From the NCBI GenBank assembly GCA_013298125.1, contig JAAFJP010000041.1, forward strand, positions 1 through 45,563: a stretch of DNA of 45,563 nucleotides, read 5' to 3'. The notes under the pieces were generated by a model. It ran no database searches and was not told the origin of the DNA. It saw nothing but the letters and a program-made list of their open reading frames with translations. Origin of the DNA: Cytophagales bacterium. GTDB taxonomy: Bacteria; Bacteroidota; Bacteroidia; Cytophagales; Spirosomataceae. Below, piece after piece: positions 1,307 to 11,916 of this stretch. The position numbers were made by a program, and so were the translations under genes. The first letter of the stretch is position 1. Every line of letters starts with the position of its first letter.

Positions 1307-1626
1307 TGCTTAATAAATGATTAATTTTTTCATAAAATTACTCCCTTAATGCGTTTTATTCAAATTTCTTTGCGAAAAGGGGATTTTCGTAGTTTTGAGC
1401 CATACGAAATTTTAATCCATTATCCTTTATTTTCTTGCGTGGTTCAATGACTAATTTCCCCTAACACCAAAACTACTGTCTGGACAGTAGAAAATAAAGA
1501 AAAAATACTGTCCAGTCAGTATTTTTTCTTTCGATTTAACCTTCCATATTTGTAACATAAAAAAGAGAAAATTGTACTTTATCCATTTTTTCTTTAAATT
1601 ACTTCGTATAAACTTATAATTCAAAG
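1307..1626. other. Intergenic region holding the operator pair and promoter of the response regulator
   Basis: This is a 320-nt divergent gap between ldcA (minus) and the response regulator (plus). Its right half holds the two 16-bp palindromes described separately. In the left half, up to about 1470, I see only AT-rich sequence and no ORF or hairpin. Confidence 0.6.
1474..1552 (+). promoter_or_regulatory. Paired palindromic operators and candidate promoter of the response-regulator/RiPP operon
   Basis: TACTGTCTGGACAGTA (1474-1489) and TACTGTCCAGTCAGTA (1506-1521) fit TACTGTCNNGWCAGTA and start 32 bp apart, about three helical turns. The second is flanked by A and T runs that extend its symmetry (1500-1527). 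A near-consensus -7 element, CATATTTG (1545-1552), follows after 23 nt, and there is no good -33 box, which fits an activator-dependent promoter. The same pair occurs at 7392-7429. Binding by the adjacent NarL-type regulator is inferred, not shown. Confidence 0.7.
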
Positions 1627-2286
1627 ATGCCCACCACCAAAATCTTAATTGCCGATGACCACCATTTAGTAGCCGAGAGTCTAAGTATGTTGCTCGGGAC
1701 GGTTGATAAATTTGAGATAATGGGCGTAGTCAATAACGGTTGGCAAGCACTTTCGTTTATCGAGACCCACAAGGTTGATATTGTGTTGGCGGATATCCAT
1801 ATGCCCTTGTTGAATGGTCTGGAAATGGCTATCAAATTAAGAGAAAAACCGACTTCTACCTACATCATCATGCTCACCATGAGCGAAGACCCGCATCATA
1901 TACGGGAGGCGTTACAGGCGGGCGTGCATGGCTACGTGATGAAAAGTGCCGAAAAACCCGAACTCATCAAAGCCATCAAGACGGTGATGAAGGGGGAGAA
2001 ATATTTTAGCGAAAAGATTATCAATAAATTAGCCGAAGTTGCCGACGACCAAAGCCCCAACGGCAAGTCTCGTATTGAGGACATTATGCCCCTCACGAAG
2101 CGAGAAATAGAGATTTTACGATTGGTAGTAGAAGACCTCAGCAATATAGAAATTGGCGAACGCCTTGATATTAGTAGCACAACCGTAGAAACCCACCGAC
2201 GGAATTTGATGAAAAAAGTGGGAGTAAATACGGCAATTGGGTTGATGCGGTGGGGGTTGAGGCATGGGTTGGTGGAGGGGGTGTAG
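1627..2286 (+). CDS. NarL/FixJ-family response regulator
   Basis: A 219-aa protein with an N-terminal receiver domain (about 5-120) and a C-terminal LuxR-type helix-turn-helix (about 152-215). The phospho-acceptor is Asp56 in VLADIHMP; the acidic pair is Asp10-Asp11, and Lys106 in VMKSAEK is the conserved receiver lysine. The HTH contains LTKREIEIL and SSTTVETHRRNLMKKVGV. It is probably phosphorylated by the TPR histidine kinase at the other end of the module (5395-7338), which has the matching HisKA_3 type. The precursor-like gene starts 48 nt after its stop with no promoter visible between, so it probably heads the RiPP operon. Paired palindromes upstream suggest autoregulation. Confidence 0.93.
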   Translation: MPTTKILIADDHHLVAESLSMLLGTVDKFEIMGVVNNGWQALSFIETHKVDIVLADIHMPLLNGLEMAIKLREKPTSTYIIMLTMSEDPHHIREALQAGVHGYVMKSAEKPELIKAIKTVMKGEKYFSEKIINKLAEVADDQSPNGKSRIEDIMPLTKREIEILRLVVEDLSNIEIGERLDISSTTVETHRRNLMKKVGVNTAIGLMRWGLRHGLVEGV

Positions 2287-2334
2287 GGGTTTTTGGGAAT
2301 GTAAATTATTTTTTAACTTAAACATAGAAAAATC

Positions 2335-2814
2335 ATGGTAGAATTAAAGGCTTTAATCAGTAGAGCAACCTCGCATTTTAATGACGAGATTAAGAAAAAT
2401 AATCCCCTCGTAACTGAAAACTTGATAACACTTCAAGTTTTACTAACGAATGATAAAAAAATTAATAATAATAATGACACTCATGCAGATAGATATATTT
2501 TGTGGCATATTCCACTGAGTGCTATCCAAAGTAACAGCGACTCGGCAGATACTTGTGAGGTAATAGAGAAAGGCATTGGGGGCAAAAAAGTCACTCCTAA
2601 AATAAAAATCATCAAGGTAGCGGATGATTGTAAAGGCTATCTGGCTATATCTGACCCTAACACACAAGCGTATGTTAGCTCAGAAAGTTATAGATTAAAC
2701 CAACTCACATCTGCGGAGTTTAGTGCTTACATCAGCAGAAAAAAGACCAATGACCCAAGTTTCTCTGCTAAAAGTGTCAATTGCTCTACTTCACGCTATC
2801 CATGTAATGGTTAA
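2335..2814 (+). CDS. Candidate RiPP precursor protein with Ser/Thr/Cys-rich tail
   Basis: A 159-aa protein that I do not recognise. It has no signal peptide or membrane helix. The N-terminal ~135 residues are mixed polar sequence with Cys74 and Cys99, followed by RKKTND. The last 19 residues (141-159) are small and rich in Ser, Thr and Cys: Ser142, 144, 147, 151, 153, Thr152, Cys150, Cys157, ending YPCNG. SVNC (147-150) has Ser and Cys at i and i+3, a spacing that can close a lanthionine-type ring. It lies 11 nt before an APH-fold kinase and two genes before a HopA1-family protein, the pair that dehydrates class V lanthipeptide precursors. The precursor role rests on context and the tail; the leader would be unusually long. 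It could instead be an accessory protein. Confidence 0.6.
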   Translation: MVELKALISRATSHFNDEIKKNNPLVTENLITLQVLLTNDKKINNNNDTHADRYILWHIPLSAIQSNSDSADTCEVIEKGIGGKKVTPKIKIIKVADDCKGYLAISDPNTQAYVSSESYRLNQLTSAEFSAYISRKKTNDPSFSAKSVNCSTSRYPCNG

Positions 2815-2825
2815 AAAATAAAACG

Positions 2826-3728
2826 ATGTTATTGTTATCAAAATACACAGTACTTGAATATCTGCTTTGGCTTAAAACCAACAACTTCTCTGGCTGTGAT
2901 ATGAGTCTCGAGCAGTTGGAGTCCATCAAAGTCAGGGAAGTTGAATCGGGTACTCAAAATTTAGTTTTTGAGTTTAGTCAAAACTTAGAAAAGTATATCA
3001 TCAAGCAATTTAGACCTGATTTGAACGAAAGGAAACCTTACTTCGTCTCAGAACGGGAGGCACTCAACTTAGAGATTCCGTTCGCTCCAATTCTCGTCTT
3101 TTGTGATGAACTTAATCAGGTTATCATTACCCAGAAAATCCCATCGCAAGACCCCATTTCAATAGTTATTGTAGAAGAAAATTCTGATGATTCTATCAAG
3201 AAGGTTATTGATAATACCGCTAAAAAACTCATAGAAATACACCAAAAGTTGGATTTAAAGGCATATTCCAACAACCAAAAATTTCCTCTGGAAAAATGGG
3301 AAACTAAAATCAAGTCTAACTATGATGTTTCTTCTTTATTATCAGATTTCCAACGAATTTGGAAACAACAACCTTGGGGTTTAGTCCATCATGATTTGAA
3401 CGGAGCTAATGTCTTGGTAGATAATAACTCTTCCGACATATCCATTATAGACTGGGAAATGTCAGAAATAGGGCATCCGTATTTCGATCTATGTGCTATC
3501 ATCCGAATAATATGCTTGTGCTATCATTCGGATTATCCTTTTGATTTCCCTGTTCCTCCTATAACTGGCACAGCATGGACAAAGACCAAAGAGTTTATCA
3601 ACTATTTTTTGGAGTGTTATGAATTTGCTGGAAATAAAGATGATTTGAAAATTATTTTCAAAGTCTTGTATTGTGATTTATACCGTATTCCTCATTTCTT
3701 CAACGTAGTGAATTACCTTTTCAACTAA
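2826..3728 (+). CDS. APH/choline-kinase-fold phosphotransferase, putative RiPP Ser/Thr kinase (LxmK/TvaC-like)
   Basis: A 300-aa kinase of the aminoglycoside-phosphotransferase fold. The ATP lysine is Lys60 in YIIKQF, with a nucleotide-loop-like ESGTQNLVFEF at 40-50. The catalytic loop is LVHHDLNGANVLVD with Asp190 and Asn195. The metal-binding segment is IIDWEMSE with Asp209, followed by GHPYFDLC. All residues needed for activity are present. In class V lanthipeptides and thioamitides, kinases of this fold (LxmK, SprPT, TvaC) phosphorylate Ser/Thr of the precursor so that a HopA1-like partner can eliminate phosphate. The gaps to its neighbours (11 and 9 nt) argue for one operon. Without that context it would be called a generic phosphotransferase. 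Substrate is inferred. Confidence 0.82.
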   Translation: MLLLSKYTVLEYLLWLKTNNFSGCDMSLEQLESIKVREVESGTQNLVFEFSQNLEKYIIKQFRPDLNERKPYFVSEREALNLEIPFAPILVFCDELNQVIITQKIPSQDPISIVIVEENSDDSIKKVIDNTAKKLIEIHQKLDLKAYSNNQKFPLEKWETKIKSNYDVSSLLSDFQRIWKQQPWGLVHHDLNGANVLVDNNSSDISIIDWEMSEIGHPYFDLCAIIRIICLCYHSDYPFDFPVPPITGTAWTKTKEFINYFLECYEFAGNKDDLKIIFKVLYCDLYRIPHFFNVVNYLFN

Positions 3729-3737
3729 CATTCAACG

Positions 3738-5510
3738 ATGATAAAGACAGACTTAGAAGCCCTTTTACAGGACTATAAAAACCTTGACGGTACGATAGCT
3801 ACTGAAAATACGATGAATAATCCTGATGCAAAAGACTACATCATGTATGAGCGGTATAAAAATATCCTCCCAAGCCCAAATACCCTCATCAACCAAGAGG
3901 ACACTACGACACTAACACATACAACCTCCTATTTTCAGTCCTTCAACATCCGACGTTTTTGGTTCAAGGACTCTAAGCCTAAAATTAACCTGAAAGAAAA
4001 CGAGATATTGGCTTTTCAAGAAGGGCGAAATATTATACTCAAACCTGGTAGATATGTTGGGGGGGGCGAAGTGGAAAATAGTGAAATAGGAGACCGATAT
4101 TCAGAGTTTGTGTATGTGTATGACCCTCAAAAAATTAGGAAATCGACTAATAATTTCTATCTACAAACCTACGGACAATTTTTGCTCAACAATACCAATC
4201 AGCATATTATTCGATTTTATTTTAGTTTAATACCCGACAAAGATAAAGTCAATGATTTTACGGATAAAATCCGAGAATATTTTAACGAACGTAGAATCCC
4301 TTTTCAGTTCAAAACTCCATTTGCTTTGAATAACTTTGGGCGGGGGGACACTTTGGTGTTATACCTGAGTCAAAGTCATTATTTCTATGTTGTTGCATTT
4401 ATCAACGAATTAGTTTTGGAAGGACTAAAAAAAGACATTTTCAAGGATAACCTTCCGCTGTTTGTCAAACAACTGAAATTTAGTCAAGGAACAAAATCCT
4501 GTAAAATTGGTTTTGCCGAAGACCCTTTTTTTGCGGGATTAGATAGTTTTGGCGAACACCGATGTGGTTTGGTATATAATATTATCAATGAAATAGGCAA
4601 GAACAAAGACTCCGTAACTATTGATGAGATTATCACGGAAATCACGAAACAGTACAAGGAGGATAAATTTTATTGTAATCCTCACACCGAGTTTGACTAT
4701 AAATTTGATAATTATTTCGGAAAGAGTGACCTTCCTATTTATTATTGTGCTGACTCTAAACTCAGTTGGTGGACAAAACCTGTATATCTTACCTTCAATC
4801 TGGTAGCACTCAATTACGGTCTTGATTTTATGGAACGAGCCATTTGGACGAATGACAAATCCTTCACGTGGTTTACCTGGGATACTGCTGATGGTAGTTA
4901 CCGAGTGGTGACCAATAATGAGCGTTTGGAAATTTACACATTTTTGTATCAACTTTTGCAAATAAATTATAACAGACGTAGATTTCCGAAGAATGTTATC
5001 CGCATCATTGAGGAAAACGGAGGAGATAATAAAAGTATTTGGAAGGGAATCGTAAAAGAAAGTAAAGAGACTTGGAGTGACATCATAGAAGAAGCCGAAC
5101 AAGATGCTTCATGGTTGGAACGCATAAGTTCGTGGATGCCTACCACACGACTCAATCAAGAAGAAACAAATGTCGAGGAACGCATAGGCAAATGGGTGGA
5201 AACCCTCCAAAAGTGGAATCCTAAAAATATTACTGATGAGGAGATTCACAAATTTGATATTTTTGCGGATAAAAAAGAAACAGTAAGATTCGCATTTCGG
5301 ATGTACAACAAATTTGTAAAGCCAAATTATCCCATCAAAAATAAGCAAGGAAATTACGAATATGTCCCAACCGATAAGGGCAAACTAAAAATAGCTATTG
5401 TGATGCTATATGTTTACTGTCCGATTCTGTTTGAAAGGACTTCGCAAGGGGAATCATCACCGAGATCTCCGTCTCAGCAGTGGTGGAAGAAACTTCCATT
5501 TCTCCATTAA
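3738..5510 (+). CDS. HopA1-family protein with long C-terminal extension, putative RiPP phospho-Ser/Thr lyase (LxmY/TvaD-like)
   Basis: A 590-aa protein. Residues about 145-285 carry the signature order of the HopA1 effector family: IIRFYFSL (157-164), IPFQFKTP (187-194), GRGDTLVLYL (201-210), PLFVKQL (240-246), GFAEDP (258-263) and SFGEHRC (270-276). In class V lanthipeptide and thioamitide pathways, HopA1 proteins (LxmY, SprH3, TvaD) act with an APH-type kinase to make dehydroamino acids. About 280 residues follow the core (about 310-590), rich in Trp and Tyr, with no motif I know; this is longer than the HopA1 proteins I recall. The last ~39 codons are antisense to the histidine kinase C-terminus, so the present C-terminus may be recent. 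Family assignment is fairly firm, the reaction is inferred. Confidence 0.8.
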   Translation: MIKTDLEALLQDYKNLDGTIATENTMNNPDAKDYIMYERYKNILPSPNTLINQEDTTTLTHTTSYFQSFNIRRFWFKDSKPKINLKENEILAFQEGRNIILKPGRYVGGGEVENSEIGDRYSEFVYVYDPQKIRKSTNNFYLQTYGQFLLNNTNQHIIRFYFSLIPDKDKVNDFTDKIREYFNERRIPFQFKTPFALNNFGRGDTLVLYLSQSHYFYVVAFINELVLEGLKKDIFKDNLPLFVKQLKFSQGTKSCKIGFAEDPFFAGLDSFGEHRCGLVYNIINEIGKNKDSVTIDEIITEITKQYKEDKFYCNPHTEFDYKFDNYFGKSDLPIYYCADSKLSWWTKPVYLTFNLVALNYGLDFMERAIWTNDKSFTWFTWDTADGSYRVVTNNERLEIYTFLYQLLQINYNRRRFPKNVIRIIEENGGDNKSIWKGIVKESKETWSDIIEEAEQDASWLERISSWMPTTRLNQEETNVEERIGKWVETLQKWNPKNITDEEIHKFDIFADKKETVRFAFRMYNKFVKPNYPIKNKQGNYEYVPTDKGKLKIAIVMLYVYCPILFERTSQGESSPRSPSQQWWKKLPFLH

Positions 5511-7338
5511 ATCGTGACACTCTTGCTTTGATATTTTTTAATCCGAAGCCCTCGGTAAGGTTTTGGGCATTTCCTCCGTTATCTCGTACACTTAATACGA
5601 TATTTTTTGAGTTTGAGAAGAGGCAAATTTCTCCCTCTGTTGCTGCGGAATGTTTGATGATATTATTGACTAACTCTAAGCCAATACTATACAATTCGAG
5701 GGCTATTTTTTGTTCAAGTGGTTGTTTGGGTTCTTTGTAGAGTAAGGAAAGAGTGATTTTACCACTCTGATTGATATCCTTCACTAATTTTTCTAATGCT
5801 CCTTTCAATCCCTTTTGTTCAAATTCAGTCGGAAGAAGATTGTGCGAAATCAATCGTACTTCCGAGTACGCATCATTCATCATATTCATCACGCTCTCAT
5901 AGACATATTTTTCTTTTTCGGTAAAGTTCACCATATCCAAGGTCTGCAAACGGTATTTGATACCCGAAATGGTACTTCCCAAATTGTCATGAAGCTCTGC
6001 TGAGACTCTTTTTCGTTCAATAGTTTGACCTTCTACTAAGGCTGCCATAATTTCATCATTCTTTTTGAGTAAATTGGCATTTGCTCTTTTGAGTTCAGAA
6101 GTTCTTAATTCTACTTTTTCTTCTAATTCATTATTGAAAGATTCTAACTGTTGATTAGCTTTTGTAATTTCCTTTTTCTGATTTTCGATAGTGACATTTT
6201 TGGCGGTAAGTTTTTTATTTATTCTAAAAAGAATTAGCCCAAAAATCACTAAAATAGAGGCTACTCCAAAAGCAATAAAACCATTCCTTTTCAAAATCTG
6301 AATTTCTTTCTGTTGATTTTTATTATCAAATTCAAATTGTAAACTTTGGATTCGCTTATCAACATCTTGCTTTGAGTTTCTTTGTTTGATTTCATTATAG
6401 GTAATATAGCTATTGAGTGCTTTCTCTGGTTGATTTAATTGTGTATAAACTTTGTAACTTACTTCCGAAAAAAATAGTAAAACATCATCAATCCCTTTCT
6501 CTTTCTTCATTAAATTCTCCGCCTCATTTAAATAATCAAGTGCCTTTTGAGGATTTTTTTTATATTCAAACACCTCTGCAAGCGAAATGAATATAATTAT
6601 GTCATCATATCCATAATTGTCTTTATGGTTTTCTAATACTTGATTATAGCATTTAATAGCTTCCTCATACTGTTTTATTTGAACTAACGATAAACCAAGA
6701 TTTGCAAGAAAAAAATTGTCAAGTTTTGGATATTTATAGCTTTTATTTAACTCCAATCCCTTCCGAAAATATATGATGGACTTACTAAAATCTTTTTTAT
6801 CGTGATATGCTAATCCTAAATTATTTAAACCTTTAATGTACAATTTATAATCTTTAAGATTTTCATAAATGGCTATTGATTTTAAGTTGAAGTCAATAGC
6901 TTTTTCATAGTTGCCAAGTAAAGAATAACAGTCTCCCAATGTTCGATAATTTTTAGCTATCAAATATTTATCATCAATGTCAATACTGATAGATAGACTT
7001 TTGTAAAAATAATCTATCGAAACCATGTATTCATTTTTAAGCATATAGTGAAGACCTAAGCCATTCTGGGCAATAGCTATTCCTTTAGACCAATTTCTAT
7101 TATTGGCAATATTAAAAGCTTTATTAATAATAAAAAAGGCTGAATCTCCTAATGCTGCAGCTCCTTCATCCCCCATCTCACACAAAACCCTAACCCGCAA
7201 AGTATCCCCTGCAAAAGTCTTTCCTTCCGCTGGTAAATGAGCCAATACGTTTTTGAGGCTATCCAATTTGGATGGCTTTTGGGCGTGGGTCGTAATAGCA
7301 AAAAACAAGAATAACAGTAACGTGTTAGTGGGCTTCAT
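5395..7338 (-). CDS. TPR-containing sensor histidine kinase (HisKA_3 type)
   Basis: A 647-aa kinase starting at the ATG at 7338, chosen because it begins MKPTNTLLLFLFFAITTHAQ, a clear signal peptide; upstream in-frame codons add an unlikely 28-residue tail that runs into the operators. Periplasmic TPR repeats fill about 60-330, then one membrane helix (GFIAFGVASILVIFGLILF), a coiled coil, and the HisKA_3 dimerization domain with the phospho-His in RKRVSAELHDNLG. The HATPase follows, with GGNAQNLTEGFGLKNIKARV near the end. This architecture is common in Bacteroidota and pairs with NarL regulators, here the gene at 1627. It lies opposite to and overlaps the 3' end of the HopA1 gene by 116 nt. 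Shared operators upstream suggest it is co-regulated with its regulator. The signal sensed by the TPRs is unknown. Confidence 0.92.
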   Translation of the reverse strand: MKPTNTLLLFLFFAITTHAQKPSKLDSLKNVLAHLPAEGKTFAGDTLRVRVLCEMGDEGAAALGDSAFFIINKAFNIANNRNWSKGIAIAQNGLGLHYMLKNEYMVSIDYFYKSLSISIDIDDKYLIAKNYRTLGDCYSLLGNYEKAIDFNLKSIAIYENLKDYKLYIKGLNNLGLAYHDKKDFSKSIIYFRKGLELNKSYKYPKLDNFFLANLGLSLVQIKQYEEAIKCYNQVLENHKDNYGYDDIIIFISLAEVFEYKKNPQKALDYLNEAENLMKKEKGIDDVLLFFSEVSYKVYTQLNQPEKALNSYITYNEIKQRNSKQDVDKRIQSLQFEFDNKNQQKEIQILKRNGFIAFGVASILVIFGLILFRINKKLTAKNVTIENQKKEITKANQQLESFNNELEEKVELRTSELKRANANLLKKNDEIMAALVEGQTIERKRVSAELHDNLGSTISGIKYRLQTLDMVNFTEKEKYVYESVMNMMNDAYSEVRLISHNLLPTEFEQKGLKGALEKLVKDINQSGKITLSLLYKEPKQPLEQKIALELYSIGLELVNNIIKHSAATEGEICLFSNSKNIVLSVRDNGGNAQNLTEGFGLKNIKARVSRFNGEMEVSSTTAETEISVMIPLAKSFQTESDSKHIASQ

Positions 7339-7391
7339 TTTATCGTGATTTGAAACGAATATACAAAAAAAATGCTCAAAAAATACAAAAC

Positions 7392-7460
7392 TACTGTCTG
7401 GACAGTACGAAAATACTGTCAAGTCAGTATTTCAAGAACTATGCTAACACTCTAATTTTG
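7392..7460 (+). promoter_or_regulatory. Second paired palindromic operator, between the histidine kinase and a 68-aa gene, with a promoter for the latter
   Basis: TACTGTCTGGACAGTA (7392-7407) is identical to the site at 1474, and TACTGTCAAGTCAGTA (7414-7429) differs from the site at 1506 by two bases. Their starts are 22 bp apart, ten less than at the first locus, so helical phase is kept. A perfect -7 element TAATTTTG (7453-7460) lies 23 nt after the proximal site, the same distance as at the response regulator. The kinase ATG is 53 nt to the left, so the element may act on both divergent genes. Confidence 0.7.
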
Positions 7461-7489
7461 AGACATCTAACATTAACGCAAAATAGTAC

Positions 7490-7696
7490 ATGAAACAAAT
7501 CATCAAATACACCATCGGCTGGGATATGGAAGGAAAAGAAGGGTATCTGACCGCCATCGACGAAACTCAACAGTCCCATGTTTTTGGCAAATTACCTCAG
7601 TCAGAATTCCAAATCTTGATTGATATGCTCAACCAAAACAAGGTCTTTATCGACAACAATAAATGGATTATCAGTGGATGGGAGTCGGGGAATTAG
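7490..7696 (+). CDS. Small hypothetical protein, likely co-regulated with the two-component system
   Basis: A 68-aa soluble protein, unrecognised. It has no signal peptide, Cys or membrane helix; the C-terminal half is hydrophilic and Trp-containing (IISGWESGN). It is placed 30 nt after a good -7 promoter element and directly behind the paired palindromes also found upstream of the response regulator. That geometry suggests it belongs to the same regulon. A repeat array begins at its stop codon. Confidence 0.6.
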   Translation: MKQIIKYTIGWDMEGKEGYLTAIDETQQSHVFGKLPQSEFQILIDMLNQNKVFIDNNKWIISGWESGN

Positions 7697-7889
7697 TTAT
7701 TGGTTTATTGGGGAATTGGTTTATTGGTTTACAGGGGAACTGGTTTATTAGTTTATTGGGGAACTGGAAAATGGTTTTATAGTTCCCGATAAAAATCTTA
7801 AACCAATAAACCAATAACCAATAGACCAATAACTAATAAGCCAATAACCAATAAACCGATAAACCAATAACCAATAAACCAATACCCAA
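7693..7889. repeat. Long inverted array of short TTATTGG-type words
   Basis: About 80 nt of TTTATTGG/GGGGAACTGG words (7693-7771) are followed by about 90 nt of the complementary AACCAATAA words (7797-7889). The two halves can pair into a long imperfect hairpin around a loop containing AGTTCCCGATAAAAATC. The right half ends about 5 nt before the LytTR gene's ATG, so it forms that gene's 5' leader. It could be a terminator for the 68-aa gene, a translation-blocking structure, or slippage-grown simple sequence. Confidence 0.8.
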
Positions 7890-8219
7890 ATGCAACAACA
7901 CATCGCTAATTACTTCGGGACACCATTAACTATCGGTATGCGAACCAAGCTGTACTCCAACGAAATTCTCTTTTTTGAAGGAGATGTCAATTATACTTGG
8001 ATTCATTTCGCCACGGGCAAGCAACAGGTTATTGCCCGTACACTTTTGTATATCGAACAAAAAACCGATGCTGATACCTTCATCCGTATCAATCGGAAGT
8101 ATTTAGTCAATCGCAAGTTTATTGTGGAAGTCGGAAATGATTTTGTGGTACTGACTGATAAGACCGTTTTGCCGATTTCGAGACGGCGGAAGCGAGGGAT
8201 ATTAGTGAGTGTGCGATAG
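7890..8219 (+). CDS. Stand-alone LytTR DNA-binding protein
   Basis: A 109-aa protein made of one LytTR domain and no receiver. Typical elements are ILFFEGDVNYTWIHF near the start, TLLYIEQKTDADTFIRINRKYLVN in the middle (F-hR-h--hhVN pattern) and VLPISRRRKRGI at the end, where the basic residues contact DNA in this family. No LytS-type kinase lies nearby. The start ATG at 7890 follows an inverted repeat array immediately, so translation may depend on leader folding. Targets are unknown. Confidence 0.9.
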   Translation: MQQHIANYFGTPLTIGMRTKLYSNEILFFEGDVNYTWIHFATGKQQVIARTLLYIEQKTDADTFIRINRKYLVNRKFIVEVGNDFVVLTDKTVLPISRRRKRGILVSVR

Positions 8220-8300
8220 CCAGTTTTAAAATTAAATCCCCAATTCCATTAAAAAACCATTCTACTACCATAAATTTGGGCTTAATTAATCAACCCAATT

Positions 8301-8927
8301 ATGTCATTAACTTACATTTTCATCGGAATCACGGTAGTCCTCAGTCTATACGCTTGGAACAATCAAAGCATTACAGGCAAATGGATTATGAACCCTTATT
8401 CCGTTCATAAATACCAAGAATATTACCGTTTCCTCACATCAGGATTTCTTCATGCCGACTATGGGCATTTGTTCTTCAATATGTACAGTTTGTACCTTTT
8501 CGGAAATATCGTCGAACCACGATTTATGTACTACTTTGGCGAAACTCGTGGGGGTATTCTGTACGCTGCCTTGTACTTGGTTGGTGTTGTAGTTGCCAAT
8601 ATTCCAGATTTTCTCAAACATCAAAATAATACCTATTACAACGCTCTGGGGGCATCAGGAGGGGTTTCTTCGGTTATTTTTTCGGCTATTTTATTTGAGC
8701 CTGTGGGACTATCCATCTTTTTTATGCCTGCCTTTGTCTATGCCATTGTGTATTCGTATTACTCGTATTATATGTCCAAGAAAAACATCGACAACATCGG
8801 ACACTCTGCTCACTTATTCGGTGCGGCTTTTGGGGTAGCATTTACCTTGATTTTGAAGCCCGATTTGTTTTTAAGTTGTATTGCACAAATAAAAGATATG
8901 AATTGGATTCATCAGTTTGGGTTTTGA
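8301..8927 (+). CDS. Rhomboid-family intramembrane serine protease
   Basis: A 208-aa polytopic membrane protein. The catalytic Ser is in LGASGGVSSVIF (the GxSG motif, about residue 117) and the catalytic His in GHSAHLFGAAFG (about 172). An HxxxN-type pattern occurs in FLHADYGHLFFNMYSLYLFG, where His and Asn shape the oxyanion site. Six membrane segments can be drawn. Rhomboids cut helices of other membrane proteins; the substrate here is unknown. Its stop abuts a REPIN-like inverted repeat that ends in eight T residues and should terminate transcription. Confidence 0.93.
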   Translation: MSLTYIFIGITVVLSLYAWNNQSITGKWIMNPYSVHKYQEYYRFLTSGFLHADYGHLFFNMYSLYLFGNIVEPRFMYYFGETRGGILYAALYLVGVVVANIPDFLKHQNNTYYNALGASGGVSSVIFSAILFEPVGLSIFFMPAFVYAIVYSYYSYYMSKKNIDNIGHSAHLFGAAFGVAFTLILKPDLFLSCIAQIKDMNWIHQFGF

Positions 8928-9021
8928 CCTCACCCCCCGCCCCTCTCCTGCTGATAGGGGAGTAATTCTTAGACAAAACTCCCCTCTCAGCAGGAGAGGG
9001 GTAGGGGGTGAGGTTTTTTTT
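8928..9021. repeat. REPIN-like inverted repeat, copy 1 (also terminator of the rhomboid gene)
   Basis: CCTCACCCC-type left arm (from 8928) pairs with a GGGGTGAGG-type right arm (to 9013). Each arm is itself an imperfect palindrome (CCCCTCTC ... GGGGAG). A run of eight T residues follows, so on the plus strand it works as a terminator. Copies at 12412-12514 and 31215-31308 share the outer words but have a different centre. Confidence 0.85.
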
Positions 9022-9072
9022 CATTAGAATTTTGACTTTACCCCCTTTTGTCTAAAAATTCAAACTGTACTA

Positions 9073-11022
9073 ATGAAAAAACTCGCTCTCTTCTTTTCTC
9101 TCTTATTTTTGGGTGTTTCAGCTTTTGCTCAACATTCTCAATTAGCCGCTAAAATGGCTGAAACCATCATCAAAGCCTACCCCGATTCGATGGTAGTGAT
9201 GAAATATGCCAGTCATTTAGAGCAAGACAAACAAATTCCATCAGGCATGACGGCTGAACAAGCCGCTAAAAATCGCCCCGCCAACTGGAACTACGAAATC
9301 GGAGTCGTGATGATGGGCTTCGAGCGACTCTGGCGTACTACGGGTGACATCCGTTATCAACAATATATCAAACACATTGTCGATAAATTCATCAATGAAG
9401 AGGGCAATATCAAAACGTATAAGTTTGACGAATATAATTCAGACAATATTCCCACAGGGCGACAATTGCTGACTTTGTATCAACTAAAAAACGAACAGAA
9501 GTACAAAAAAGCCGCCGACATCCTCCGCAATCAATTGGCTTGGCAACCTCGCAACCGAGTAGGGGGCTTTTGGCATAAACTCAAATATCCTACTCAAATG
9601 TGGCTCGATGGCTTGTATATGATTGAGCCATTTTATGCAGAATATGCCCAAATGACGGGTAATACGCAAGATTTTGAAGATATTGCCAATCAGTTTGCGA
9701 TGGTAGAACGCTACACCAGAGACGATAAAACAGGTTTGCTTTATCACGGTTGGGACGAAAGTAAACTACAAAAATGGGCAAATCCGCAAACAGGAAAATC
9801 GCCCGAATTTTGGAGTAGAGCGATGGGTTGGTACGTTATGGCAATCGTCGAAACCTTAGATTATTTTCCAAAAGACCATCCCCGCCGTACCGAGTTAATT
9901 GCCGCCCTCAATCGTTTTTCGACTGCCATTATCAAATACCAAGACCCTACCTCGGGCGTGTGGTGGCAAGTAACCGACAAAGGCGGGCAAGCGGGCAACT
10001 ACTTAGAATCTTCGGGTTCGGCAATGTTTGTGTTTGGTTTGGCAAAGGGTATCAGAATGGGCTATTTATCAGAATCATATTTGCCCGCCGTCAAAAAGGG
10101 TTTTGATGGTTTACTCAAAACCTTTGTAACTACCGATGCAGACGGCACGGTGCATTATACCAAAGCCGTGGGCGGGGCAGGTTTGGGCGGTACACCCTAC
10201 CGTGATGGCACGTATGAGTATTACGTAAAAGAACCCACCCGTACCGACGACCTCAAAGCCATTGGACCTTTCATGCAAGCCTGTGTAGAGATGGATATGT
10301 TGGCTCAAATGTCCGTGGGAAAGGGTAAAACGGTCATGTTAGATAATTTTTTCAATAACGAATACCGAAAAAATGGGGGTAAATATCACTATCTCTGGGA
10401 AGACCGTTTCGACTCAGGATATTCATTTTTAGGAACAATTTTCAATGATTTTGGAGCAAAAACCAGTACACTTACCACCGAACCCACCAAAGAAAATCTA
10501 AAAAATGCAAATGTCTATATCATCGTGGACCCCGATACCAAAAAGGAAACGGAAAGCCCTAATATGATAGAAACCAAGCATATACAAGTTTTGAAAGACT
10601 GGGTGTCGAACGGAGGGACGTTGGTACTACTTGCTAATGATACCGCCAATTGTGAAACAAAACGTTTCAATGAACTCACCAAAGCCTTTTGCGTGAGTTT
10701 GACGGGCAAAAGTAGAAACATGGTGCAAAACGACCAGTATGTTCAAGGGCAATTAATCCTTTCGGGCAATGACCCAATTTTTAAAGATGCCAAGAAGATT
10801 TATGTCAAAGAATTGGTAACGCTATCCGTAAAAAATCCAGCCAAAGCGGTATTAGAAGAAGGCGGGGACGTAATTATGGCTACCGCCAACGTAGGTAAAG
10901 GAAAAGTCTTCGTACTCGGTGACCCTTGGATTTATAACGAATACCTCAACGGCAGAAAACTACCCGCTGATTTCGAGAACTTCAAAGCCGCAAAGGCTTG
11001 GGCGGAGTGGTTGTTGAAGTAG
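9073..11022 (+). CDS. Secreted glycoside hydrolase family 105/88-like (unsaturated rhamnogalacturonyl hydrolase) with C-terminal DUF4350-like domain
   Basis: A 649-aa protein with signal peptide MKKLALFFSLLFLGVSAFAQ. Residues about 30-415 match the alpha/alpha-barrel YteR/YesR type, with MWLDGLYMIEPFYAEYA, YHGWDESKLQKWANP and SRAMGWYVMAIVETLDYFP; the aspartate in WLDG is the expected catalytic/active-site acid. These enzymes remove the unsaturated uronic sugar left by rhamnogalacturonan lyases in pectin breakdown, usually in the periplasm. The last ~215 residues (VMLDNFFNNEYRKN onward) look like a DUF4350/GATase-like domain, with LKDWVSNGGTLVLLAND and GKVFVLGDPWIYNEYL. No other pectin gene is adjacent. 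Confidence 0.88.
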   Translation: MKKLALFFSLLFLGVSAFAQHSQLAAKMAETIIKAYPDSMVVMKYASHLEQDKQIPSGMTAEQAAKNRPANWNYEIGVVMMGFERLWRTTGDIRYQQYIKHIVDKFINEEGNIKTYKFDEYNSDNIPTGRQLLTLYQLKNEQKYKKAADILRNQLAWQPRNRVGGFWHKLKYPTQMWLDGLYMIEPFYAEYAQMTGNTQDFEDIANQFAMVERYTRDDKTGLLYHGWDESKLQKWANPQTGKSPEFWSRAMGWYVMAIVETLDYFPKDHPRRTELIAALNRFSTAIIKYQDPTSGVWWQVTDKGGQAGNYLESSGSAMFVFGLAKGIRMGYLSESYLPAVKKGFDGLLKTFVTTDADGTVHYTKAVGGAGLGGTPYRDGTYEYYVKEPTRTDDLKAIGPFMQACVEMDMLAQMSVGKGKTVMLDNFFNNEYRKNGGKYHYLWEDRFDSGYSFLGTIFNDFGAKTSTLTTEPTKENLKNANVYIIVDPDTKKETESPNMIETKHIQVLKDWVSNGGTLVLLANDTANCETKRFNELTKAFCVSLTGKSRNMVQNDQYVQGQLILSGNDPIFKDAKKIYVKELVTLSVKNPAKAVLEEGGDVIMATANVGKGKVFVLGDPWIYNEYLNGRKLPADFENFKAAKAWAEWLLK

Positions 11023-11166: not shown

Positions 11167-11916
11167 TTACAAACACTCCACCACCGCCAGAATTTTCTCA
11201 AAATCAGAGTAAACTACCTCATATTCAGGTACTTCTGAAAGCCCACCCATCGCAATACCTTCTTTCCGATAAACCATTTCAGAATCACGGCTTGCCTTGC
11301 CTGTGAGGTGCAAGGCATTTACGCCCGTATGTATGAGCATTTGGGCATTAGCTGCGTTTACGCCACTTCCTGCCATGATTTCGATTCTACCATTGGCTTG
11401 TTTTGCTAATTTTTTGATATTTTCGATGCCTTCCATTGCCGTATTTTTTTGTCCAGAAGTAAGGATTCTATCACAACCAGATTCGATAATATCTTCGAGG
11501 GCTTCTAAGTAATCAGGAGTCATGTCGATAGCACGGTGGAAAGTTACTTGCATCGGTTCTGCCAAAGCTACCAATACCTTAGTTTGGGCAATATTCACTT
11601 GTCCATCTTTCTGTAAAATTCCCAAAACAATTCCCTCACATCCAAGTTTTTTTGCTATGCGTATATCCGCTTGCATGACAGCTATTTCATTATCTGAATA
11701 ACAAAAATCTCCCCCACGTGGGCGAATCATGGCATGAATTTCGATATTAACTCTTTGCTTGGCTAACTGAATCAAACCTGCCGAGGGCGTTGTGCCTCCT
11801 TCGTACATCGAACCGCAAAGTTCGATGCGTTTTGCACCGCCTTTTTCAGCGGCAAGGCACGATTCGAGGGAGAAAGCACAGACTTCAACAATTGGGGGTT
11901 TTGGGCTAAATATCAT
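11167..11916 (-). CDS. cutC: CutC family protein (copper homeostasis)
   Basis: A 249-aa TIM-barrel protein of the CutC family. Conserved stretches are EVCAFSLESCLAAEKGGAKR, IELCGSMYEGGTTPSAGL, IHAMIRPRGGDFCYS, VTFHRAIDM and GCDRILTSGQ, all at expected spacing and full length. The family is named for copper tolerance in E. coli, but a direct copper role is disputed and the enzymatic activity is unsettled. Cytoplasmic, no signal peptide. It stands alone, converging on the GH105 gene. Confidence 0.92.
   Translation of the reverse strand: MIFSPKPPIVEVCAFSLESCLAAEKGGAKRIELCGSMYEGGTTPSAGLIQLAKQRVNIEIHAMIRPRGGDFCYSDNEIAVMQADIRIAKKLGCEGIVLGILQKDGQVNIAQTKVLVALAEPMQVTFHRAIDMTPDYLEALEDIIESGCDRILTSGQKNTAMEGIENIKKLAKQANGRIEIMAGSGVNAANAQMLIHTGVNALHLTGKASRDSEMVYRKEGIAMGGLSEVPEYEVVYSDFEKILAVVECL

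Follow-up and report, generated by a model that had tools for sequence, protein, structure and literature searches.

The window analysed here, positions 1-45,563 of contig JAAFJP010000041.1 in assembly GCA_013298125.1 (72 contigs, 5.85 Mb; source genus Arcicella), carries a cassette of five genes that includes a predicted kinase/HopA1 enzyme pair. Response regulator (RR), a 159-residue open reading frame (ORF), kinase and HopA1 follow one another on the plus strand, and a sensor histidine kinase (HK) converges on them from the minus strand. The NarL-type RR (1627-2286) combines a receiver with a GerE domain (Pfam PF00072 Response_reg, 8.9e-26; PF00196, 8e-18). The ORF behind it (2335-2814, plus strand) is classed as a hypervariable precursor-like protein by its position and predicted fold. 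It ends 11 nt before an APH-fold, LanK-like kinase gene (2826-3728, plus strand; PF01636, 3.6e-13), which is followed after 9 nt by the gene for the HopA1-family lyase (3738-5510, plus strand; PF17914, 2.7e-15, 57.1 bits against a cut-off of 22.7). At their 3′ ends the HopA1 and HK genes share 116 nt. The HK (5395-7338, minus strand) has a signal-peptide-like start (by eye), one transmembrane-like segment and Pfam matches to TPR, HisKA_3 and HATPase_c. Re-reading the ORF coordinates bore out the gene positions and both spacings in an initial annotation of this DNA, and a profile match well over the cut-off upheld its assignment of the 3738 protein to the HopA1 family. The Pfam scan covered 16 proteins of the window, and identities were computed from ORF starts called in this analysis. 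L numbers denote loci and G numbers Arcicella genomes, G000 being the window's own; C stands for contig.

PF17914 was detected in 44 of 222 Spirosomataceae genomes, in 8 of 291 genomes drawn from the order (6 of them in the family, including the window's own) and in 4 of 395 genomes sampled across the class, one of which is again the window's own; Runella rosea (Spirosomataceae) also has a HopA1 locus. A profile scan with the single HopA1 protein returned no relative, and one with a three-row alignment returned two, on contigs of named genomes. Within the family 49 loci were read, the window included, with ORFs called in this analysis. All 32 loci with a long HopA1 ORF contain the kinase, two as fusions. 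A convergent HK is present in 31 (the exception, L073, ends at a contig edge), an RR lies within four ORFs upstream in 21, and LanC occurs in 0 of the 32. Another 16 loci have short HopA1 ORFs (partial or split in L030 and L077), 14 with a kinase and 7 with LanC; a two-component system (TCS) gene stands beside none of the 7 with LanC, and RR genes, HK genes or both stand beside 8 of the 9 others. No HopA1 ORF was called at L029. The initial annotation knew of no described Bacteroidota cluster with this layout. The synteny search in relatives was positive, but the layout is not unique and is common in one family; a description of it was not found in the open-licence literature, and the supplements of Eyles et al. 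may list some of the loci.

Five loci outside the family (L096-L100) are kinase-HopA1-LanC clusters with Cys-rich or repeated precursors, which makes a biosynthetic role of the kinase/HopA1 pair likely in the phylum. HK- and RR-like genes follow LanC in L096 and an RR-like gene adjoins L097, so the long form is not alone in having a TCS. By their sequences these five and the g5 loci (L061, L062, L064-L068; one other genus) are apparently class Vb-like clusters in Bacteroidota. The precursor-like protein at L100:5986-6306 (106 aa) holds four copies of a CCWIAVATTSC-like unit.

The active sites of both enzymes look intact. Residue counts exclude the two kinase-HopA1 fusions (L023:5903-8833 and L091:6032-8956; about 975 aa, profile matches in both halves) and, for HopA1, fragments as well; the final kinase hidden Markov model was also built without the fusions. 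Asp-190, Asn-195 and Asp-209 of the window kinase are found in all 44 aligned kinases, Lys-60 in 43 and His-188 in 40, in agreement with the earlier reading of an APH kinase with intact HxD/N/D residues. Arg-159 and Lys-192 of the window HopA1 protein are conserved in 44/44 HopA1 proteins, Arg-202 in 37/44 and Tyr-209 in 42/44. According to passages of Liang et al. (PMC9486802), the lyase CaoY requires Lys-219 and Arg-187 and is impaired by R229Q, and Tyr-236 is conserved. The spacings from Lys to Arg (10) and Arg to Tyr (7) are those of CaoY, and that from Arg to Lys is 33 versus 32. The HopA1 profile matches the solved lyase 9dk1 (E 1.2e-9), with the four catalytic residues aligned, and also HopA1 itself (4rsx, 5.9e-4). 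At L088:7129-9010 the HopA1 gene consists of two ORFs (133 and 478 aa) and so is broken or misassembled.

Behind the lyase part, from about residue 330, the window protein appears to end in a truncated LanC-like domain. HopA1 of the g5 loci is short (325-376 aa) and is followed by a separate LanC of 423-429 aa, recognised by PF05147 in L061 (2.7e-59) and L064 (1.5e-57) and assigned by profile in the others; WCHG and CHG motifs occur in all four LanC proteins inspected, that of L029 included. Beyond window residue 290, the long HopA1 proteins have a further 227-444 residues, which align with the start of this LanC (hhalign probability 97.7, E 1.8e-12, 90 columns) and more weakly with its end. 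The long HopA1 of L076 matches the LanC part of a LanM model (3.8e-11); the window protein itself gave no match to that part. A zinc motif C[HN][GA] was found in only 1 of 29 long C-terminal domains, as a lone CNG. From the LanC alignment of the long forms together with the missing zinc motif, the window HopA1 protein is a lyase fused to a truncated, zinc-less LanC-like domain. An 800-aa protein encoded on a Deinococcus sp. QL22 plasmid combines a HopA1 match with a whole LanM-type cyclase part. In a tree of 49 HopA1 lyase parts, the 30 long forms lie on one side of a single branch with modest support (69/74). LanC-like genes are also present elsewhere in the window's genome, at G000:C15:18333-21938 (PF05147 2.8e-44 and 1.1e-10), unlinked to the cassette.

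The 159-residue ORF had no family match above cut-off in Pfam and NCBIfam scans. An ORF of 106-193 aa stands directly 5′ of the kinase in 31 of the 32 long-HopA1 loci (the exception is L070), and its sequence is hardly conserved among loci. In the window protein, residues from about 1 to 140 are predicted to be folded (block means of the predicted local distance difference test, pLDDT, 52-88; model m836c1c3d442e) and residues 141-159 to be disordered (pLDDT below 50). The putative core, residues 145-159 (AKSVNCSTSRYPCNG; 2767-2811, plus strand), was assigned from the conserved tail and its Cys/His enrichment; it carries Ser/Thr and two Cys, and the window tail contains NCSTSRYPCNG. Tails were compared in 35 precursor ORFs forming 26 clusters, of which 24 representatives were counted. 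This set excludes the kinase-HopA1-LanC loci, L021, L024, L063, L069 and L077 (HK between precursor and kinase), as well as L027, L029, L030 and L070, where no precursor ORF was found beside the kinase. All 24 representatives have Cys or His within the last 20 residues (6 Cys, 18 His; 11.0 expected from shuffles). The pattern [ST]x(1-4)[CH] occurs there in 19 (4.8 expected, z 7.15) and ranks first among 190 residue pairs; its first test, on the last 30 residues, had given 21/24 (7.4 expected). The gene described earlier as precursor-like is upheld as a precursor by position; most tails hold His and not Cys. Outside the set, the tails of L021 and L024 have a Cys farther from the end.

Tail positions also tend to be kept. 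Cys or His of the tail aligned to Cys or His in 18 of 22 cases versus 17 of 61 elsewhere (Fisher 2.6e-5, pairs not independent), and in 14 of 17 pairs conservation is higher in the tail than in the remaining protein, often only slightly; it is lower in window/L018, L082/L084 and L084/L093. The closest relative found, the culture-collection strain Arcicella aurantiaca DSM 22214 (L101; G007:C2), has a HopA1 protein 53% identical to the window's and 13 identical tail residues; AKSVNCSTSRYPC is identical in the two precursors, which are 37% identical outside the last 25 residues. In L101 the genes for precursor, kinase and HopA1 occupy 6545-7015, 7031-7948 and 7992-9701. SxPPC (L079, L081) and SxPPH (L019, L020, L088) belong to adjacent branches of the HopA1 tree, which suggests an exchange of Cys and His at one position. 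A precursor fetched later, that of G004 (L131), ends in KTYTDGH and fits the pattern.

The initial annotation had claimed operators common to RR and HK, and in the window they are there. With at most one mismatch, ACTGTCNNGWCAGT has 8 strand matches at 4 places, against 0.10 expected; ACTGWCNNGWCAGT is present at only 7 places across the 5.85-Mb assembly, of which the window has 4, and its reversed control at 1. One unstranded pair precedes RR (1475-1520), with ACTGTCTGGACAGT at 1475-1488 and ACTGTCCAGTCAGT at 1507-1520, and the other precedes HK (7393-7428), with sites at 7393-7406 and 7415-7428. Across 20 cassettes, TACTGTCNNGACAGTA-like sites with up to three mismatches were found 5′ of RR in 7 and 5′ of HK in 9 (0.2 expected for each), and in both regions in 5. 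Of the 9 HK-side sites, 5 are 70-74 nt upstream of the called start, and that of the window is 69 nt upstream of the ATG at 7338. We moved the HK start to this codon because a signal-peptide-like sequence begins there and because of the operator spacing and the start of the A. aurantiaca homologue; ATG 7338, not TTG 7422, is probably the true start. Operators common to RR and HK did not prove to be general among the cassettes: a shared stretch exceeded all shuffles in just 2 of 20 (the window and L079). Operators before both genes suggest autoregulation. The three ACTGWCNNGWCAGT places outside the window are C1:198844, C1:198877 and C17:51537. By eye, the sites at L110 (G000:C1:198844-198890) precede a GerE-like and a LytTR-like ORF and then a very large protein whose start looks signal-like, and the site at L111 (G000:C17:51537) precedes another LytTR-like ORF.

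Kinase/HopA1 pairs in several phyla and HopA1-LanC fusions have already been published by Eyles et al. (PMC8153245), in whose main text the word Bacteroid is absent. Passages of a 2025 review (PMC12328550) place class V lanthipeptides only in actinobacteria, class Va without and class Vb with LanC, and parts of a Bacteroidales survey of ribosomally synthesized and post-translationally modified peptides (RiPPs) leave HopA1 and class V unmentioned and suspect signalling near some precursors (PMC10352776). We found no class V product from Bacteroidota described in the open-licence literature. Like the class V systems (cacaoidin CaoK/CaoY, lexapeptide LxmK/LxmY, pristinin SprPT/SprH3), the window has an APH kinase and a HopA1 lyase beside a precursor, and its lyase shares the catalytic residues of CaoY at nearly identical spacing. 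Unlike them, the cassettes of this kind have precursors of 106-193 aa, no common leader, His in most tails, a TCS of their own, a LanC-like remnant fused to the lyase and no linked Cys decarboxylase that could be recognised. A class Va HFCD-type Cys decarboxylase was absent from the 16 window proteins scanned; the single flavoprotein match in the genome (C1:279179, a 413-aa frame on another contig) is probably the housekeeping CoaBC.

Class Vb (SmoC; described in part of PMC12328550) and the HopA1-LanC families 11/20 and 22 (in part of PMC8153245) likewise pair or fuse their lyase with a LanC-like domain. Unlike theirs, the domain in the window is truncated and without the zinc motif (CHG), and no zinc LanC stands in the cluster, the LanC matches on contig C15 being unlinked. 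Thioamitides (TvaC/TvaD, TsaC/TsaD) share the kinase and HopA1 pair; unlike them, the window's genome has 0 matches to YcaO PF02624, which matched in 5 of 14 control genomes. For the noursin-type class III RiPPs made by NorKC, the likeness is by analogy only and concerns His as a possible nucleophile towards dehydrobutyrine; NorKC is a single LanKC enzyme versus the kinase/HopA1 pair of the window. The window kinase scored 14.6 bits against the NCBIfam LxmK model (cut-off 315), and the kinase of the kinase-HopA1-LanC locus L061 reached 67.4 bits, likewise below the cut-off. With no linked zinc LanC or decarboxylase, no YcaO and a score far below the LxmK cut-off, strict membership of class V or the thioamitides fails: judged by gene content, the cassette is not a typical cluster of either kind. 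The class V/thioamitide-like module proposed at the outset thus stands in its kinase/HopA1 pair, positional precursor, TCS with shared operators and synteny, but the class was drawn too narrowly, also in view of the 18 of 24 tails with His.

We therefore read the cassette, with good though incomplete confidence, as a polymorphic RiPP module that is built on a kinase/HopA1 pair and has a TCS of its own, a LanC-derived remnant and tails alternating between Cys and His. The reading starts from features that are visible in the sequence, namely gene order, catalytic residues that appear intact, LanC ancestry of the C-terminal domain, tail enrichment and operators. The product of the cassette would be a peptide or small protein that is ribosomally encoded and then modified post-translationally. 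Within the 159-aa precursor, the APH-fold kinase would phosphorylate Ser/Thr of the disordered C-terminal tail, and the HopA1 domain would beta-eliminate the phosphate to leave dehydroalanine or dehydrobutyrine. A nearby Cys in the window, or His in most sister alleles, could then add to close a ring, the zinc-less LanC-like domain perhaps steering the addition, and the modified product would be released. The NarL/TPR TCS would drive its own operon and the HK gene through the paired palindromes, presumably by way of this RR.

Several points weigh against this reading. The tail pattern is post hoc, having been seen by eye before it was tested. In L092 and L094 the second ORF was chosen after the tail had been seen; the count of tails with Cys or His becomes 23/23 without these loci and 24/25 with their first ORFs. 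The G004 precursor that fits the pattern is a distant relative (about 30%) of that of L090. His is present in 18 of the 24 tails, and addition of His is not known to us from any HopA1 system. The precursors, at 106-193 aa, have no common leader; class V candidate precursors are given as shorter than 110 residues in a part of PMC9486802. Foldseek with the precursor model reached a best E of 0.27, with nothing credible among solved structures, and the AlphaFold model of the 590-aa HopA1 protein (mean pLDDT 43) was too poor, so that no fold search was made with it. A pattern search did not recover the HxD...N...D motif in the fusions L023 and L091. The LanC-like genes on contig C15 could act in trans. 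No dedicated protease or exporter was recognised among the 16 window proteins scanned, nor a precursor signal peptide by eye.

The inner genes of the cassette appear to be exchanged between conserved flanks. Beyond the HK, and divergent from it, lies S68 (7490-7696, plus strand), a conserved 68-aa protein noted for its presence in Arcicella. Pairs for comparison were chosen by hand for being close or related, and they do not count as independent. In 12 of 14 cassette pairs the RR proteins are 81-95% identical (51 and 54% in the more distant L082/L084 and L022/L089), and S68 identity is 71-94% in 10. L075 and L080 have RR proteins 95% identical, with precursors at 23%, kinases at 24%, HopA1 at 25% and HK at 35%. 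For L019/L088 the values are RR 94%, S68 93%, precursor 31%, kinase 34%, HopA1 38% and HK 44%, and for the window and G004, RR 87%, S68 94%, precursor 17%, kinase 23% and HK 39%. The first 70 HK residues are 71% identical in window/G004 and 52% in L075/L080, the remaining sensor 30 and 22%, and the kinase part 47 and 46%. In 4 of 8 Arcicella genomes (G001, G003, G005, G006), the LD-carboxypeptidase gene directly adjoins one whose protein starts with a DKLVEAEE-type sequence, and the cassette is missing there; in G007 a cassette of about 6.9 kb sits between these two genes. RR lies beside the LD-carboxypeptidase gene in G000 and G004; G002, a metagenome-assembled Arcicella genome with locus L102 (G002:C268), gave a weak match. 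S68 is found in 5 of the 8 genomes, those with the long-HopA1 cassette or its parts on contig ends. In other genera, too, S68 adjoins the cassette.

This pattern invites a signalling role, compatible with the chemistry proposed above, in which the TPR HK of each cassette recognises that cassette's modified tail as its cognate ligand, making the tail a polymorphic autoinducer; we put it forward tentatively, as possible. In agr and ComQXPA the precursor, modifying enzymes and HK sensor half are polymorphic, and the response regulator is conserved. The cassettes studied here appear to follow this pattern, as drawn from 17 of them with weak correlations and two contrary pairs; the enzymes, HK family and precursor differ from those of agr/ComQXPA, and product sensing is only a candidate. 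RR and S68 are conserved in close pairs while the inner genes, often including the HK sensor, differ (L075/L080, window/G004), and in 15 of 17 pairs the sensors are less identical than the catalytic parts. The contrary pairs are window/L017 (sensor 79 versus catalytic 66%) and window/L018 (63 versus 60%), in which the sensor is not more variable. In the 17 cassettes with all five genes (L085 and L088 dropped by hand), and with RR distance removed, the sensor covaried with the lyase (0.34; 0 of 1000 permutations as high), the kinase (0.29; 2) and the precursor (0.19; 18). The HK catalytic half covaried less, both with the lyase (0.16; 116/1000) and with the precursor (0.05; 302/1000). Linkage alone should favour the catalytic half, since it lies next to HopA1. 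Against this, the cassettes number only 17, correlations of 0.19-0.34 rest on poorly aligning identities whose ranks at 20-30% are noisy, a correlation is harder to see in catalytic halves that vary less, and TPR parts may evolve faster. The suggested autoregulation suits a signalling loop, but operators precede RR in only 7 and HK in only 9 of 20 cassettes, and no exporter was recognised among the scanned window proteins. Nisin and NisK are a precedent for an HK that senses its product, as described in part of PMC5266694.

An antagonistic or metal-binding peptide, with the TCS sensing an outside stress or metal, seems to us doubtful. Hypervariability fits competition, the tails combine Ser/Thr with His or Cys, and the LanKC enzyme NorKC is known to make copper-binding RiPPs in which His is cross-linked to butyrine (in a part of PMC10206099). 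An immunity gene, however, should covary with the precursor, and S68, the sole other conserved small gene seen, does not; nor was a metal transporter recognised among the 16 window proteins scanned.

Alternatively, kinase and HopA1 might modify an intracellular protein as a switch, the 159-aa protein staying whole. The precursor is largely predicted to be folded and shows no signal peptide by eye, no dedicated protease or transporter was recognised in the window, and OspF-type lyases do act on proteins (reported in part of PMC9486802). We think this unlikely: the hypervariable tails share the Ser/Thr...Cys/His signature, and the kinase-HopA1-LanC clusters of the phylum have Cys-rich precursors.

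That HopA1 is a secreted effector-like toxin with the kinase as its partner, as the public annotation of relatives ('T3SS effector HopA1 family protein') might suggest, is very improbable and was rejected, since an APH-type kinase adjoins HopA1 in 32 of 32 long loci and the catalytic residues are those of biosynthetic lyases. A role of the cassette in phage defence was also considered and rejected; PADLOC (E ≤ 0.01) gave no match for precursor, kinase, HopA1 or S68, and the matches of HK and RR were generic TPR and HTH ones.

Returning to the modified tail peptide as the preferred reading, its boldest form would be a Bacteroidota autoinducer: a dehydrated tail closed by a Cys or His ring (lanthionine, or histidinoalanine/histidinobutyrine), an allele-matched TPR sensor, and precursor-enzyme-sensor blocks exchanged between the regulator and S68 flanks. 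We regard this combination as improbable in full. If true, HopA1-type RiPP chemistry with a built-in TCS would extend to Bacteroidota, with a naturally occurring set of enzymes for which His may replace Cys as the ring-forming nucleophile and a candidate peptide-signalling system of that phylum with allele-specific sensors. A. aurantiaca DSM 22214, as the nearest relative found, opens the chemistry to direct testing.

Next to S68 the window encodes a LytTR DNA-binding protein (7890-8219, plus strand; PF04397, 9.9e-14) that is possibly part of the unit; S68 adjoins a LytTR gene in L017, L018, L030, L084 and L092 as well. A rhomboid protease gene (8301-8927; PF01694, 6.3e-21) follows it, and CutC is encoded farther on (11167-11916). 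The gene after LytTR in L017 and L018 differs from this rhomboid protease gene. At L132 (G006:C307, 124-3183) a short HK ORF stands beside S68 and LytTR, with transposase-like ORFs next to them (by eye). On a Runella rosea plasmid (L133, 2988-3833), a protein annotated as a member of the protein-glutamine glutaminase family is encoded beside the kinase/HopA1 pair, and by eye the first ORFs beside the kinase in L092 and L094 resemble this gene.

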